Notes under the pieces: model-generated
The model's database searches: none
Told to the model about the DNA's origin: nothing
The model's input: the letters and a program-made list of their open reading frames with translations, nothing else
Part shown: positions 11,427 to 18,016 of the stretch, one piece after another
Numbering within the stretch: the stretch's first letter is position 1
Layout: each line of letters starts with the position of its first letter
Source: Succinivibrionaceae bacterium
Lineage (GTDB): Bacteria; Pseudomonadota; Gammaproteobacteria; Enterobacterales; Succinivibrionaceae
Assembly (NCBI GenBank): GCA_024688225.1
Contig: JAILEI010000055.1
Coordinates: 1-32,454, forward strand
Reading direction: 5' to 3'
Length of the DNA stretch: 32,454 nucleotides
Program-made: the position numbers and the translations under genes

Positions 11427-11951
11427 TCACCACAGCTGCCCAATCGCCTCGTCGCACATCCTGGAGAAGCCCTCACGAAGGGTGTCCACCAGCATGGTGT
11501 ATCCCTCCCCCTGCTGGGTGAGTTCCCGGTCCAGGCCCACCGTGCCCCGCTCACGCCCCCTTTTGTCATAGCGGGTGAAGACGGCGCTGATGTAGGCCTG
11601 CCCTGACTCACTGCCCTGGAAGCGTGAGACCACGATGCCCAGCCGGCCGCCCCTGAGGCTGCGCCCACTGCGCCCAAGGGCCTCGGAGCAGAGGATGCGC
11701 AACTGCATCTCAAGCGGCTCCGCCCAGCGGTGGTGCTTGGCGCCGATAAGGCTGTTGCGCGAGACCTGCAGCACTATCCCACCCTCATCGAGCACCGGGC
11801 TGAGCTCCACGCTAACCCCCGCCCCCTGCACCAGGCTGGCGGCCTTGACGCCCTGCACCATGCTATAGCGCTCCGGGTTTATGTCACTGCCGCAGCCCGC
11901 AACCATCAATCCCAGCGCGCAGGCGAGCGCGGACATTTTGCAAGTTCCCAT
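11427..11951 (-). CDS. pqiC: PqiC-like intermembrane transport lipoprotein
   Basis: Lipobox LMVAGC after start ATG 11951 with AGGAGG RBS; last gene of a pqiABC-type cluster. The ORF track extends the start to 11993. Confidence 0.75.
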   Translation of the reverse strand: MGTCKMSALACALGLMVAGCGSDINPERYSMVQGVKAASLVQGAGVSVELSPVLDEGGIVLQVSRNSLIGAKHHRWAEPLEMQLRILCSEALGRSGRSLRGGRLGIVVSRFQGSESGQAYISAVFTRYDKRGRERGTVGLDRELTQQGEGYTMLVDTLREGFSRMCDEAIGQLW

Positions 11952-11964
11952 AAGTTGCCTCCTG

Positions 11965-13596
11965 TTAGCGCCGCTTGCCAGGCACTGGATCATTGCCAGA
12001 TCCGAAAATGATCGATCTCGGGCTTTCTCCCAGATCGCGCACGCCAGGGCTCAGGTCACGCATGGTCTGCTCCAGCTGGTTCATGATATTCAGCAATTTC
12101 TTGTAAACCCTGCCGTTTTGGTCATAACCCTGGGTGGTCTTCTTGAATTGCTGCAACGAGTCGCCGAACTTCTTGAAGGCCTCGGTTACCTCATGGACCA
12201 TGTTCTTTTGCTCCATGGCCTCCAGGGCCTTGCCCATCGAGGCCAGGGTGCGCTGCATCTCAGCCAGGGCCTTTCGCCCCTCCAGGGCAGTATCGTCAAG
12301 CTTCATGCCCTTGATGTCAGCCAGCACATCGTTCAGGGACTCCATGGGGTTGCCACCCCGATCCACAAATGGAATCACTGGCACCCCATTAATCTCTTTC
12401 ACCGGGCACTTGCACTTGCCCTCCCCCTCAAACTCTAGGCTGAGACTGTTCTGTCCGGAGATAAGACTCTCTGAGTAAGGGTGGGCGCAAACCGAATGCT
12501 TGCCGACATACTCAGAGATGATTTCATTGATTTCCCTCTCCTGTTCCAGGGTGTCTGCATATATGGAGATCAGCAGTGGAATCTTCTCACTGGCCGGGAA
12601 GAAGCTTACCTCCCGGTCTGGTGCCCAGATGGGATCGATGATTTGGCCAACCACCTCCCCACGGTAATAGACCCGGCTGCCCTCCCTGAGCCTGCCAGGA
12701 TCACGGTCAAAGAGCACTACCAGGCGCGGCGAGAGCTCCAGGGAATGGGCCTCGGCTGATTCATAGTCCTGGTAAAGCTTCTTCGGCACCGATAGATCCA
12801 TGGGCTCGTCTGCACCCCTGGGACCAATATTGCCAAAGGCAAGTGTGCCCTCAATGACGCTAACCAGGGACTCGACCTTGAACTTGAAGCCCGTGCCATC
12901 GAAGCTGGCGGTGAGGCCGCTCTCCGTCCAGAAGTAGGTGTTCTCCTTAAGCAGCTGGTCGTAAGGCTCGTTGATGAAGACCTTGTAGTTTACCCGCTTG
13001 CCACCCGGATCCAGCTTGATGCTGTAGACCTGGCCAACCTTGATGCCATTGTGGGTGACCAGCGATCCCTCGATGACCCGGTTCTTGCCCTCAGAGTAAA
13101 TGTTGACCGTGGTCCCCCTCTCGTTGTATGGGTTAAGCGGTGGATCCTCAAGGGCGGTAAACTCAGTTTGCTTCTCCTCAGCGCTGCCCGCTGAGATCTG
13201 CAGGTATGCCCCACCCATGATGGTATCAAGTCCGGAGACCGAGGAAGCCTCAAGGCGGGCCTTGACCACCCAGATCTTACTGTCCTTGCGCAGCAGGCCG
13301 TCGGTGTCCGGATCCATGCGCACCCAGGCAATCACCGACTTGAAGTCCTCGGCAAGCTCAATGCGCTCCACCCTGCCCACTGGGAAGGAACGGTACTTTA
13401 TGGCGGTATTGCCGGCCTCAATGCCTTCCGCTGAGTTGAGCGTTACCTTGATGAGGACTCCCTTGTTTATGGTGTTGTCCCACAGCATCAGCAAGGTCGC
13501 CACCAGGGCGAGGACTGGAATAATCCAGGCCAGGGAGAACCTTCTCCTCCTGCCGGTGCGCGCCCCGCTCTCCCTTTTCCCGTCACTGCCTTCCAT
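11965..13596 (-). CDS. pqiB: PqiB-like MCE-domain intermembrane transport protein
   Basis: N-terminal TM then MCE-like repeats (GIEAGNTAIKYRSFPVGRVERIEL; GTTVNIYSEGKNRVIEGSLVTHNGIKVGQVYSIKL; GSRVYYRGEVVGQI). TAATG overlap with the pqiA stop supports ATG 13596; the ORF track starts at 13614. Confidence 0.88.
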   Translation of the reverse strand: MEGSDGKRESGARTGRRRRFSLAWIIPVLALVATLLMLWDNTINKGVLIKVTLNSAEGIEAGNTAIKYRSFPVGRVERIELAEDFKSVIAWVRMDPDTDGLLRKDSKIWVVKARLEASSVSGLDTIMGGAYLQISAGSAEEKQTEFTALEDPPLNPYNERGTTVNIYSEGKNRVIEGSLVTHNGIKVGQVYSIKLDPGGKRVNYKVFINEPYDQLLKENTYFWTESGLTASFDGTGFKFKVESLVSVIEGTLAFGNIGPRGADEPMDLSVPKKLYQDYESAEAHSLELSPRLVVLFDRDPGRLREGSRVYYRGEVVGQIIDPIWAPDREVSFFPASEKIPLLISIYADTLEQEREINEIISEYVGKHSVCAHPYSESLISGQNSLSLEFEGEGKCKCPVKEINGVPVIPFVDRGGNPMESLNDVLADIKGMKLDDTALEGRKALAEMQRTLASMGKALEAMEQKNMVHEVTEAFKKFGDSLQQFKKTTQGYDQNGRVYKKLLNIMNQLEQTMRDLSPGVRDLGESPRSIIFGSGNDPVPGKRR

Positions 13597-14843
13597 TAGT
13601 TTCCATGATCCCAAATCAAGCGCTCATCAAACTGCTCGGCTGAAAGCAGGGTGAGCAGCACCACCGAGCAAAAAACCACAATCGCAAAGCCGGGGTTAAT
13701 GGTAATCAGTCCCCCCATCCTGACCACCGAGGACATGATGATGACCACAAAGACGTCAATCATCGACCACTTGCCGATGAGTTCCACCACATGGTAGATG
13801 CGCGACTGCTCCAGCCGCGACCTGCGGGACTTCCCGGAACTGGCGCAATGCACCAGGTAATATATGCACAGGATCTTGAAGATGGGGATGCAGATGCTGG
13901 CAAAGAGAATGACCATGGCCACGAAGTATGATCCCATTCCCCAGAGGGCCACGACACCATCGATGATGTTTGCCCCACTGCCCTTGCCCAGGAAGACTGT
14001 GAACATCACAGGATAAAGGTTGGATGGCATGTAGAGAATGCTGGCGGCAATCACCAGTGACAGGGACTTCTGCAGGGCGTGAGGGTTGCGCAGGGAGTTG
14101 CGGCACTGGCAGCGCGGGCAGCGCCCGCTCCCATCCTGGCCAGATGGGTACTGGGCCCCACAGGTGCGGCAGACAATCACCCCCTGCTCCATGCCCCTGC
14201 CCCCCGGAACCAGGCCCGGCGCCAGGGATCCCGTGCCCAGGCGATCCCAGAGCCGCGAGGGGCGGTATGCCACCCAGCACCATGACACCAGCAGCGAGAA
14301 GGCCAGCGCGGCAAAGAACCCGCTGTGAAAGCCCACGTCAGCAAGCGAGGTCAGCTTCACCAGGCTGATGATCACCCCCATCATGAACACGTCCACCATG
14401 CAGTAGCGGTGGCACCAGGTGTAGGCCAGGGCCGTGCCCCGGCTGGGCACGTATCCCATGAGCCCTACCATCAGCTGCACGATGAGCACTACCAGTGGCA
14501 GCGCCAGGGTAACCGCCAGGAAAACCCACAGCAACAGTCCCCAGTCCAGGCGCAGGGTGGTAAACACAGTGAAAAGGGACATCCTCACGCTAACCCCGCT
14601 GGCGCTCAGGGACATGAAGGGGTTGCTAAGGGCGCAGGCTAGCATCAGCAGCGCCGAGAGGGCCATCAGCCCGACATTGAGCTCACTGGCGCCGCGCGCC
14701 GGAACCAGCACCGCACCGCAGCGTGGGCAGTGGCATGGCTTTCCATGATCCTGGCTTTCCGGGACCAGGACCACCAGATCGCAGTGATGGCAGACCTCAA
14801 GCCTGCCCCGATCCTGGCCCCCAGTCCCCTCTTGTGCGCTCAT
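13596..14843 (-). CDS. pqiA: PqiA-like integral membrane protein with two zinc ribbons
   Basis: CHHC...CPRC and CRTCG...CPRC zinc ribbons separated by multiple TM segments; adjacent to pqiB. Confidence 0.88.
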   Translation of the reverse strand: MSAQEGTGGQDRGRLEVCHHCDLVVLVPESQDHGKPCHCPRCGAVLVPARGASELNVGLMALSALLMLACALSNPFMSLSASGVSVRMSLFTVFTTLRLDWGLLLWVFLAVTLALPLVVLIVQLMVGLMGYVPSRGTALAYTWCHRYCMVDVFMMGVIISLVKLTSLADVGFHSGFFAALAFSLLVSWCWVAYRPSRLWDRLGTGSLAPGLVPGGRGMEQGVIVCRTCGAQYPSGQDGSGRCPRCQCRNSLRNPHALQKSLSLVIAASILYMPSNLYPVMFTVFLGKGSGANIIDGVVALWGMGSYFVAMVILFASICIPIFKILCIYYLVHCASSGKSRRSRLEQSRIYHVVELIGKWSMIDVFVVIIMSSVVRMGGLITINPGFAIVVFCSVVLLTLLSAEQFDERLIWDHGN

Positions 14844-14970: not shown

Positions 14971-15498
14971 CTACCTGAATCCTTCCTTGAGCACCACCTG
15001 CCCAGTGGCAAGCGAGGCAGGCACATCGATGATGCGCTGGTTTGATGATCCCCGGAAATCGAGATCATAGGAATGCTGGGACTCAACGTATGGCCCGTCG
15101 ACCACTACCTCCAGGCACTTGAGGAACTCCAGGCGGGCAGGATCCGACACCAGCTTGTCAAATGTATACCCAGAATATGCCCAGAGTGAGTAACCCTTCT
15201 CGAGGAGAATCCTCGAGAACACGGTGAGTGCCCGGGACTGGATGAAGGGCTCGCCGCCTGAGAAGGTCACCCCGGAGACCAGGGGACTTTGCCTGATCTC
15301 CTCGTAAATGACCTTAAGCGGCACCTCAATCCCGCCATCGAGCGACTGGGCCTGGGGGTTGTGGCAACCCTTGCAGTGGAATGGGCAGCCCTGGGTGAAG
15401 ACTGTGTAGCGAAAGCCCGGGCCGTCCACAAAGGACTCCGGCACGCAGCCGGCAATCCTCAGGTAGGTGCAATCCAGCAGTCCCAGATCCATGGCCAT
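14971..15498 (-). CDS. nrdG: Anaerobic ribonucleoside-triphosphate reductase activating protein (radical SAM)
   Basis: FTQGCPFHCKGCHNPQAQ (CX3CX2C), VSGVTFSGGEPFIQ; likely start MAMDLGLLDCTYLRIAGCVPES at 15498 (the ORF track extends to 15618, overlapping the small upstream ORF). Confidence 0.93.
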   Translation of the reverse strand: MAMDLGLLDCTYLRIAGCVPESFVDGPGFRYTVFTQGCPFHCKGCHNPQAQSLDGGIEVPLKVIYEEIRQSPLVSGVTFSGGEPFIQSRALTVFSRILLEKGYSLWAYSGYTFDKLVSDPARLEFLKCLEVVVDGPYVESQHSYDLDFRGSSNQRIIDVPASLATGQVVLKEGFR

Positions 15499-15508
15499 CA
15501 GCTTTCCC

Positions 15509-15670
15509 CTAGGAGAGGTGCTGGTGCTTGACGCGATCCTGCACTTCGGCGCGCTTGGCGTTGTTAAAGCGATCCAGGGTGCCCACCAGGTAACCGGTGA
15601 CCCTGCGGATCCGCTCAAACTTTACCCCTTCGCCTACCATGCCATTGCGTTCATGCAACCTGACGACCAT
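15509..15670 (-). CDS. Small glycyl-radical domain protein: detached C-terminal glycyl-radical segment of class III RNR (NrdD)
   Basis: 53-aa ORF not in the supplied track: MVVRLHERNGMVGEGVKFERIRRVTGYLVGTLDRFNNAKRAEVQDRVKHQHLS*. Contains RVTGY glycyl-radical motif and RVKH tail typical of NrdD C-termini. Strong RBS AAGGAGAGAAAACA-ATG. Located between nrdD and nrdG, same strand. Confidence 0.88.
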   Translation of the reverse strand: MVVRLHERNGMVGEGVKFERIRRVTGYLVGTLDRFNNAKRAEVQDRVKHQHLS

Positions 15671-15682
15671 TGTTTTCTCTCC

Positions 15683-15738
15683 TTATTTTAAACAAAAAAC
15701 AATAATAATATATTTATTATATTTATTTAGTTATTATG
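15683..15738. other. Extremely AT-rich spacer between nrdD and the small glycyl-radical ORF
   Basis: ttattttaaacaaaaaacaataataatatatttattatatttatttagttattat; only a few G/C in about 55 bp. Perfect TATAAT on the minus strand at 15716-15721. Confidence 0.75.
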
Positions 15739-15751
15739 CTTGCTGTAGTTC

Positions 15752-18016
15752 CTAGCAGGATCCGATGCAGTCCACCCCCAGCTTGCGGAGGCGCTCAATG
15801 GTCACCCCCTCTCCATCGCGGCGCCCGCACTTGGGGCACACGTCATTAATCACGCCCACGTAGTTGCACACCGGGCAGCGATCCACGGGATGGTTGATTG
15901 AGCCATAGTTCACGCCACAGTCGCGCATGTGCAGGATCACCCGCTCGAAGGCATCGATGTTGCGGGTGAGATCGCCATCCATCTCCACGTAGGAGATGGC
16001 CCCGGCGTTGCACATGGCGTGGAAGGGGCCCTCGATGCTGATCTTGTCCGCCACCCCGATGTTGAAATAGACCGGGACATGGAAACTGTTGGTGTAGTAC
16101 TCGCGATCGGTAACCCCCTTGATGGTGCCGTACTTCTCACGGTCAATCTTGACGAAGCGGCCGGAGAGGCCCTCAGCCGGGGTGGAGAACAGGGAGAAGT
16201 TGAGTCCCGTCTCCTCTGACTTGCGATCATTGAGGTCCCGCATGTGCTGGATGATCTCGTAGCCGAGCTTGCGCGCCTCCTCGCTCTCTCCATGGTGCTT
16301 GCCCACCAGGGCCACCAGGCACTCGGCAAGGCCGATGAAGCCGGTGCTCAGTGAGCCATGCTTGATGATGTCGCGGATCTTGTCGTTGGGATCGAGGCGA
16401 TCCGAGTCAATCCAGATCCCCTGCCCCATGAGGAACGGGTAGTTGAAGACCCGCTTCTCGGCAATGATCTCAAAGCGGTCCAGCAACTGGGTGAACACCA
16501 TGTCCTGCATCCGGTCGAGCGACTCGTAGAAGGCGCTGATGGACCCATGGGCCTCAATGCCCAGGCGCGGCAGGTTGATGGTGGTAAAGGACAGGTTGCC
16601 ACGGCCGGTGATAACCTGCTTGGTCTTGTCATAGACATTGCCAAACACCCTGGTGCGGCACCCCATCACCGCCAGCTCAGTCTCCGGCCGGCCCTCAACG
16701 TAGTACTGCATGTTGTACGGGGCGTCGAGGAAGGAGAAATTGGGGAAGAGGCGCTTTGCCGAGACCTCACAGGCGCGGCGGAACAGGTCGTAGTTGGGGT
16801 CGCCCTTCTTGGTGTTGACGCCATCCTTGACCTTGAAAATCTGCACCGGGAAGATCGGGGTCTCGCCCTCACCCAGGCCGGCGTCAGTGGCATCAAGGAT
16901 GTTGCGGATAATCATGCGCTGCTCGGCAGTGGTGCCGGTGCCATAGTTGATCGAGGAGAAGGGCACCTGGGCGCCAGCGCGGCTCTGCATGGAGTTGAGG
17001 TTGTGGATCAACGCCTCCATGGCCTGGTAGGTCTCACGGTCGGTAAGGCGCAGCGCCTCATTGACGGCATAGTCTGCAGCCCCCTCGAGCTCCTCATCGC
17101 GGATATGGCCTTTCATCAGCTTGAGGATCTCGTTCCTAATGAGATCCTGCGAGGTCTGCTTGAGCACTGATCCCTGGGAGTCGTAGAGGTTCTGCACCAG
17201 TCCCACCAGATCCTTGGTCTCGATGGAATCGTCGCGCAGCACAATCTTGATCACCCGGGAGAGGTGCTTCTCATAGGAGAAGACCACATAGGGCTCGAGA
17301 TCGTACTCGAACATGGGGATGGACTGCCCGCCATGCATGTCATTCTGGTTGGACTGGATGACAATGCAGCACAGCGCCGCCGCGGTCAGGATGGATTGCG
17401 GCTCGCGCAGGAAGCCATGCCCGGTGGAGAACCCGCGCTTGAAGAGGTTCTTGAGCGGAATCTGGCAGCAGTTGATGGTGAGCAGGTAAAAGTCGAGATC
17501 ATGGATGTGGATGTCGCCGTTGGTGTGCGCTAGGGAATGCTCCGGGCGCAGCACGTAGCGCTTCACGAAGTCCTTGGCGCCCTCTGATCCAAAGCGCAGC
17601 ATCATGCCCATCGGGGCATTGGCGTCAATGTTCGCGTTCTCACGCTTGAGGTCCATGTCAGCGGTGGACTTGTTGGTGAGATCACGGTAGATGGTGGTCA
17701 GCTCCTCGTTCTGGTTGCGCACGTTGGTGCGCTGCTGGCGGTAGAGGATGAAGTTCTTGGCCTCATCGGCAAGGCCGTTCTTGATGAGCACCTTCTCAAT
17801 GATGTCCTGGGTGTGCTCAACGGTGGGGGTGATGTTGATCTCGCCCTCAATGACGTCAGTCACCTCCGTGGTAAGGCGGGCCGCGGTCTCCTCGTCAAAG
17901 TCGGTGACCCCATCGTCCGGGTGGACCGAGACCAGCGCCTTCTTGATGGCATTGGTGATCTTGTGCTCGTTGAAGGAGACACGCCGTCCATCACGCTTGA
18001 CGATGAACCTAATCAT
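15752..18016 (-). CDS. nrdD: Anaerobic ribonucleoside-triphosphate reductase large chain lacking the C-terminal glycyl-radical loop
   Basis: 754 aa: N-terminal ATP cone (MIRFIVKRDGRRVSFNEHKITNAI), HTNGDIHIHDLD, AVMGCRTRVFGN, GRGNLSFTTINLPRLG, C-terminal CPVC..CPKC ribbon, then ends GEGVTIERLRKLGVDCIGSC*. No RVxGY in the ORF. Confidence 0.95.
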   Translation of the reverse strand: MIRFIVKRDGRRVSFNEHKITNAIKKALVSVHPDDGVTDFDEETAARLTTEVTDVIEGEINITPTVEHTQDIIEKVLIKNGLADEAKNFILYRQQRTNVRNQNEELTTIYRDLTNKSTADMDLKRENANIDANAPMGMMLRFGSEGAKDFVKRYVLRPEHSLAHTNGDIHIHDLDFYLLTINCCQIPLKNLFKRGFSTGHGFLREPQSILTAAALCCIVIQSNQNDMHGGQSIPMFEYDLEPYVVFSYEKHLSRVIKIVLRDDSIETKDLVGLVQNLYDSQGSVLKQTSQDLIRNEILKLMKGHIRDEELEGAADYAVNEALRLTDRETYQAMEALIHNLNSMQSRAGAQVPFSSINYGTGTTAEQRMIIRNILDATDAGLGEGETPIFPVQIFKVKDGVNTKKGDPNYDLFRRACEVSAKRLFPNFSFLDAPYNMQYYVEGRPETELAVMGCRTRVFGNVYDKTKQVITGRGNLSFTTINLPRLGIEAHGSISAFYESLDRMQDMVFTQLLDRFEIIAEKRVFNYPFLMGQGIWIDSDRLDPNDKIRDIIKHGSLSTGFIGLAECLVALVGKHHGESEEARKLGYEIIQHMRDLNDRKSEETGLNFSLFSTPAEGLSGRFVKIDREKYGTIKGVTDREYYTNSFHVPVYFNIGVADKISIEGPFHAMCNAGAISYVEMDGDLTRNIDAFERVILHMRDCGVNYGSINHPVDRCPVCNYVGVINDVCPKCGRRDGEGVTIERLRKLGVDCIGSC

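Follow-up and report, generated by a model that had tools for sequence, protein, structure and literature searches.

A predicted two-chain class III ribonucleotide reductase with a detached glycyl-radical peptide in Succinivibrionaceae, other anaerobes and phages

The class III ribonucleotide reductases (RNRs) of Prevotella copri (PDB 8p23), Escherichia coli and phage T4 have an NrdD chain with an ATP-cone, a barrel, two catalytic cysteines, a zinc-ribbon motif and a glycyl loop, and an NrdG activase encoded in the same operon. All these features, including the sequence of the loop, are shared by the locus described here, which differs in that the radical glycine is found on a separate gene product of about 50 residues and the large chain (the body) stops shortly past the zinc ribbon, its tail being a conserved GEGVxIERL.

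Detached glycyl-radical domains are known from YfiD/GrcA and phage T4 Y06I, autonomous glycyl radical cofactors that act as spare parts of PFL after oxygen cleavage (PMC8683613). As in our case, these are small separate proteins that repeat the glycyl-radical end of a parent enzyme and occur in both host and phage; however, the parent here is NrdD and not PFL, the peptide has 53 residues as compared to the 14.3 kDa of YfiD, and it gives no match to PF01228. Validated spare-part proteins concern PFL only, although the 2021 paper on YfiD speculates on other glycyl radical enzymes (PMC8683613). A catalytic chain that derives from two genes is also found in the split class II RNR NrdJa/NrdJb of Pseudomonas aeruginosa (PMC4520616), which belongs to a different class. 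Finally, nrdD coding regions in pieces have been described in phages, with introns in T-even phages, an intein in Clostridium phage c-st and the case of Lactococcus phage 949 (PMC3653736). There, the interruption is due to an intron, an intein, a homing gene or unexplained breakage, whereas in the present case the gap is too short to hold an intervening element, the second piece can be translated from a start of its own, and peptides are also found free of any body. Full-text searches of an open-access library turned up no account of a class III RNR whose radical peptide is detached.

The divided nrdD operon

The window, that is, the whole stretch of 32,454 nucleotides analysed here (contig JAILEI010000055.1 of the Succinivibrionaceae bacterium assembly GCA_024688225.1), carries on its minus strand an operon with the order nrdD body, 53-residue ORF, nrdG (Table 1). 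The body, whose C-terminal end reads CPKCGRRDGEGVTIERLRKLGVDCIGSC before the stop codon, matched Pfam PF13597 (NRDD) with 604.5 bits, against a gathering score of 26.2, over positions 1-532 of the 562 in the model, and the Pfam search placed the ATP-cone PF03477 at residues 4-97. NCBIfam PRK07111 was divided likewise, since the body covers positions 1-716 and the peptide positions 710-744 of 746. Cys453 and Cys183, the predicted catalytic cysteines, are invariant across the alignments of split and fused enzymes. The radical glycine is absent from the 754-residue chain, in which the NRDD match stops at position 532. Among the features that define a class III RNR, the barrel, both catalytic cysteines and a dedicated NrdG (the sole NrdG match in the genome) were found, and a glycyl loop in the same chain was not.

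Table 1. Features of the nrdD operon and its surroundings, in coordinates of the window
Feature	Position	Strand	Basis or remark
nrdD body, class III RNR catalytic chain without glycyl radical loop, 754 aa	15752-18016	-	PF13597, PF03477, PRK07111
Cys183, second catalytic cysteine (predicted)	17468-17470	-	aligns with P. copri Cys171
Cys453, radical-initiator cysteine (predicted)	16658-16660	-	phmmer alignment to 8p23, P. copri Cys416; codon checked
Body copy of junction segment, GEGVTIERLRK	15782-15814	-	24/33 nt identical to peptide copy
Residual tail LGVDCIGSC, Cys750 and Cys754	15755-15781	-	related tails GVDCIC.G in nearly all Succinivibrionaceae split bodies
Stretch from first base of body TAG to base before peptide ATG, 84 nt, 81% A+T	15671-15754	-	sequence
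Ribosome-binding site AAGGAG, 8 nt before peptide ATG	15679-15684	-	sequence
Detached glycyl-radical peptide gene, 53 aa	15509-15670	-	PF13597 32.6 bits, positions 532-562/562
Peptide copy of junction segment, GEGVKFERIRR	15602-15634	-	24/33 nt identical to body copy
Gly26 of peptide, predicted radical glycine	15593-15595	-	aligns with P. copri Gly711
nrdG, predicted radical-SAM activase of NrdD	14971-15498	-	TIGR02491 136 bits, above cut-off
pqiA-like, MCE/PqiB-type and lipoprotein (pqiC-like) candidates downstream of nrdG	11427-14843	-	by eye

The small ORF translates as MVVRLHERNGMVGEGVKFERIRRVTGYLVGTLDRFNNAKRAEVQDRVKHQHLS and aligns with the C-terminal end of P. copri NrdD, the structure of which is solved. 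Considering that its Gly26 falls on the radical glycine of that enzyme and that the body keeps the catalytic cysteines, the ORF is predicted to encode the glycyl-radical peptide of a class III RNR. No model for the peptide alone exists in Pfam, NCBIfam or PHROGs, and the Pfam search gave no PF01228 (Gly_radical) match either for this peptide or for three peptides of a longer type described below.

We consider it highly probable that the locus encodes a two-chain class III RNR made of a body and a docked, NrdG-activated peptide, in which the overlap at the junction derives from a fused ancestor and extra copies of the peptide would serve as cartridges. The 754-residue chain would supply the ATP-cone, the barrel, the catalytic cysteines and the zinc ribbon, whereas the 53-residue peptide would supply the C-terminal glycyl-radical loop, dock in the barrel like the fused C-terminus of an ordinary NrdD and be activated by NrdG at Gly26. 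The conserved GEGVxIERL with which the body ends and the GEGVxFERIRR at the start of the peptide would be overlapping descendants of the junction segment of the fused ancestor, the body copy probably being retained for the docking surface. Oxygen cuts glycyl radical enzymes at the radical glycine. With the radical part on a separate chain, cleavage at its glycine would spoil only a cheap and replaceable piece, and the additional chromosomal and phage copies would provide the same body with alternative or spare radical cartridges. That the two chains form a complex, that the radical is transferred, that the peptide is replaced once oxygen has damaged it and that phages benefit are steps that we infer.

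The linked read-through chain, modelled with AlphaFold, had a pTM of 0.79, and the best PDB match of the model was chain B of 8p23, a structure with ATP/CTP bound and with the radical domain ordered in one of the monomers. The input alignment used in-frame read-through rows; otherwise, MAFFT put the fused junction on the body tail. The pLDDT was about 76 around residues 791-800, in the peptide region, and below 50 at the glycine loop. Given this middling confidence for the peptide, the proposed docking rests on homology. A two-chain enzyme of this kind would permit the radical peptide to be mutated, labelled and swapped independently of the rest of the enzyme.

The junction segment and the tail of the body

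The original prediction had noticed that the body, at its end, shares an 11-codon segment with the small ORF, with about 24 of 33 nucleotides identical. The recount gave exactly this value, which none of 3000 codon shuffles reached; at the protein level the two copies have a BLOSUM62 score of 41, and none of 3000 shuffles was as good. The comparison with fused homologues that had been suggested as a check was carried out on about 24 sampled sequences, and the segment, as [D/E]GVxFERIRR or a close variant, was found once in each, directly before ITGYLVG. In those from Bacillota and Coriobacteria it follows the CPxCGR zinc motif, and the distance from the zinc motif to TGYL in fused homologues is 13-15 residues. 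In the two peptide alignments, a variant of this segment opens the conserved part of almost every peptide. At the level of sequence, the junction is indeed duplicated, with an overlap that nearly all split NrdDs have in common; being found so generally, the overlap is a property of the split rather than a local event.

The tails that follow the zinc motif in 77 split bodies have E at position 4 in 73 cases, V at position 6 in 67 and E at position 9 in 66, and the GE[GAP]VxIE[RK]L part is kept in most of them. This conservation favours a docking role, and the GEGVxIERL tail is probably kept by function. For the residual tail and its two extra cysteines, a redox role had been proposed together with docking. 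A cysteine pair (DCIC or similar) is present in 20 of 21 Succinivibrionaceae split bodies, where 0.45 bodies with at least two cysteines would be expected. In other lineages at least two tail cysteines were counted in 24 of 56 split bodies, as compared to about 2 expected. Among all 77 bodies, 44 have two or more and 24 have none; Desulfovibrio, phage and several Clostridia bodies are among those with a cysteine-free tail. In the sampled set of 24 fused enzymes, none has a cysteine after the loop. A redox role is not general, considering the 24 bodies without tail cysteines; the pair is recurrent and not required, and may serve in redox chemistry or metal binding.

Separate genes, probably acting in trans

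The stretch between the two ORFs is, as had been reported, a multiple of three with four in-frame stops (TAG, TAA, TAA, TAA), and the count of 84 nucleotides was exact. To our knowledge, it is too short for any known intron or intein. The shared frame had been taken as a clue to the origin of the split. If the stops were read as residues, the two ORFs would give a chain of 835 residues, and programmed read-through or recoding into a fused NrdD has this in its favour. However, four stops would have to be passed, and a ribosome-binding site lies before the ATG of the peptide, which makes this ORF translatable by itself. Moreover, across 74 split loci the frame offset from body to peptide is 0, 1 and 2 in 32, 24 and 18 cases, respectively (p=0.08), and the distance from the stop to the glycine motif ranges from 62 to 356 nucleotides; neither spacer length nor frame is conserved, and the common frame in the window is a matter of chance. 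In one phage-like locus an endolysin gene stands between body and peptide (L038), and in a Desulfovibrio genome the two lie on different contigs (G427). The variable frame, the ribosome-binding site and the unlinked genes led us to reject a fused chain made by read-through or frameshift, which we regard as very improbable. Separate translation of the peptide ORF is the simplest reading of these sequences.

The L038 locus (G035:C57, 4323-8761), on a MAG contig which is phage-like by its endolysin, has the order body, endolysin, peptide, nrdG, MazG-like gene; its body has 612 residues and lacks the ATP-cone, and its peptide, of 86 residues, is of the long type. The MAG of Desulfovibrio RUI265 (G427) contains two different loop-less bodies, one of them directly before nrdG, and two peptides on other contigs, none being present in the fetched flanks of the bodies (loci L246, L247, L253 and L254). 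The peptide of L254 lies beside terminase and endolysin genes.

The content of the window genome (95.8% complete, 208 contigs) points in the same direction. It contains one NrdD body, two peptides, the second one on G000:C81 beside a citrate synthase-like gene, and one NrdG, and profile searches of it found neither PF02867 (class I/II RNR) nor PFL. Since the body lacks the radical glycine and the genome has no class I/II RNR and no PFL, body and peptide must act in trans. PF02867 was also absent from all four split-body genomes sampled, namely Succinivibrio dextrinosolvens DSM 3072, Massiliimalia timonensis, a Desulfovibrio and a Mailhella MAG. Among 35 Succinivibrionaceae genomes, a split body together with a peptide was found in 21, and the other 14 have only a fused NrdD and no peptide (Fisher p=4e-10, kinship uncorrected).

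The fragmentation of the assembly into 208 contigs might suggest that the split is an assembly error, or else that nrdD is a decaying pseudogene. However, many independent assemblies show the same organisation, those of S. dextrinosolvens DSM 3072 and M. timonensis among them, and decay is at odds with strong purifying selection and with no other RNR large subunit having been found, so that we regard both possibilities as extremely improbable. In fact, the median pN/pS was 0.10 for peptides adjacent to a body, 0.18 for distal and 0.17 for viral ones, and the two peptides of the window genome differ with a pS of 0.53 and a pN of 0.06; all three classes are under purifying selection. The sequences themselves thus establish the split, the residues retained and missing, the organisation in trans, the selection and, within the searches made, the lack of another RNR large subunit.

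Because the body of this genome has no radical loop of its own, the peptide would be obligatory and not a spare, unlike YfiD/GrcA. A partner with its own radical domain, as expected for a spare part, is missing in the window genome and present in Ruminococcus-like genomes. We would place the system among the class III RNRs, in a two-chain variant which would work like YfiD/GrcA but is not a member of that family.

Distribution, origin and extra copies

The split architecture was found in about 20 Succinivibrionaceae genomes, in many Bacillota/Mycoplasmatota and in Desulfovibrio-like bacteria, the genomes surveyed being mostly MAGs. Most split bodies are directly followed by the peptide gene, often with nrdG next. 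In the remaining Gammaproteobacteria, no detached peptide was found in 369 sampled genomes of the class (E<=1e-6); the single match outside the family was a fused enzyme, and a match in INPHARED (MT837933) also proved fused on inspection. In the NrdD tree, which was built with a quick method on a sample biased to peptide-like hits and in which the meeting of long branches was flagged, the Succinivibrionaceae split bodies form one supported clade among mostly Bacillota-type NrdDs, and the NrdD in other genera of this family is fused and of the E. coli type. This indicates horizontal acquisition. Two fused NrdDs (L179 and L212) are nested among split NrdDs of Bacilli and might represent a re-fusion of body and peptide.

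These data bear on the origin that had been proposed for the split, a short tandem duplication with insertion of a spacer. The overlapping duplication stands, as shown above, whereas a local event in this lineage does not, the split being old and widespread and its spacer varying freely in length and frame. A tandem duplication of the nrdD 3' end with spacer insertion in the ancestor of the split forms would account for the junction segment in both halves and for the position of most bodies directly before the peptide gene, and often nrdG. Against it, free peptides unlinked to a body exist beside fused NrdDs and in phages, the tree needs several changes between the split and fused states, at least four of them forced by its starred branches, and the same overlap would result if a body had lost its own loop once a free peptide existed. 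We hold such a duplication to be possible, though doubtful. Both routes, duplication with loss of the upstream radical loop and shortening of a body that already had a free peptide beside it, fit the sequences at hand, and genomes with a fused NrdD and a separate peptide, such as that of Ruminococcus flavefaciens FD-1, show that the second could be taken.

Fifteen of the 20 split-type Succinivibrionaceae, including the window genome, contain one to three further unlinked peptides; some of these lie at loci conserved across genera, others next to integrases or further genes of mobile elements. Ruminococcus-like genomes, including R. flavefaciens FD-1, have a fused NrdD and a detached longer peptide of about 87-99 residues. 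In phages or fused-NrdD genomes, long peptides of 87-106 residues carry an extra N-terminal domain of about 45 residues (loci L170, L172, L191, L214, L225, L235, L255, L147, L148 and L156), for which none of three tested sequences matched a Pfam family. NrdR-type boxes were found before nrdD in 40% of cases vs. 3% in shuffles; the same scan gave no enrichment before distal or viral peptides, and FNR-like sites were present at 2 of 31 distal peptides, no clear excess over the roughly 2% seen in shuffles.

Two scans of IMG/VR, in which the best matches were kept, gave 158 loci, consisting of 148 free-standing peptides, 7 fused enzymes and 3 unclassed; these counts refer to best matches, some contigs occur in both scans, and the first scan alone gave 447 relatives. 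The fetched flanks contain no NrdD body for 141 of the free-standing peptides, and 7 peptides have a split body nearby. Several viral peptides have endolysin, holin, integrase or terminase genes as neighbours, and free peptides of phage loci are found in lysis or tail cassettes. Of 70 viral peptides, 14 have the motif RVTGYL...KHxH, typical of Succinivibrionaceae, which did not occur among the 59 peptides counted in the second bacterial set; the remaining viral type has RITGYL, otherwise seen in other bacteria. The correspondence of the two viral types with bacterial types fits host matching.

Distal and phage peptides might instead sit in the docking groove as decoys or regulators, tuning the RNR or blocking it. 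The placement of phage peptides in late lysis/tail cassettes, mostly without a nearby NrdD body, would agree with this, as would the distinct cysteine-bearing N-terminus of distal peptides (14 of 20 vs. 1 of 19 adjacent ones). We consider this role unlikely, as the glycine loop and its flanks are intact under purifying selection in all classes, as expected for a radical that is used. The N-terminal cysteine of the distal peptides (L054-L072) often lies about ten residues before the junction segment, within FICRL, YCRL or FCRL.

Beyond the two-chain enzyme itself, the extra copies may constitute a mobile pool of interchangeable radical cartridges, in which hosts keep isoforms for different oxygen conditions and phages bring versions that re-arm the host enzyme while they infect, a proposal that we put forward tentatively, with nearly even confidence. 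If true, it would extend the spare-part principle of PFL to DNA-precursor synthesis, obligatorily in some lineages, and would offer a possible reason for the extra copies in oxygen-exposed anaerobes and their phages. The natural set of such RNRs is large and includes the cultured S. dextrinosolvens DSM 3072, M. timonensis and R. flavefaciens FD-1, which makes the proposal testable, and the analysis reveals many genes of 40-100 residues that have no stand-alone family model in Pfam, NCBIfam or PHROGs.

A related arrangement was observed in the cultured Eggerthella phage EL753P1 (OP172808, 2870-3200; locus L237), where a loop-less NrdD body is followed by a peptide ORF with a frameshift between RIRRI and TGYLTG. 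The frameshift may be a sequencing error or a real inactivation, and the first half of the ORF is annotated as a hypothetical protein of 42 residues.
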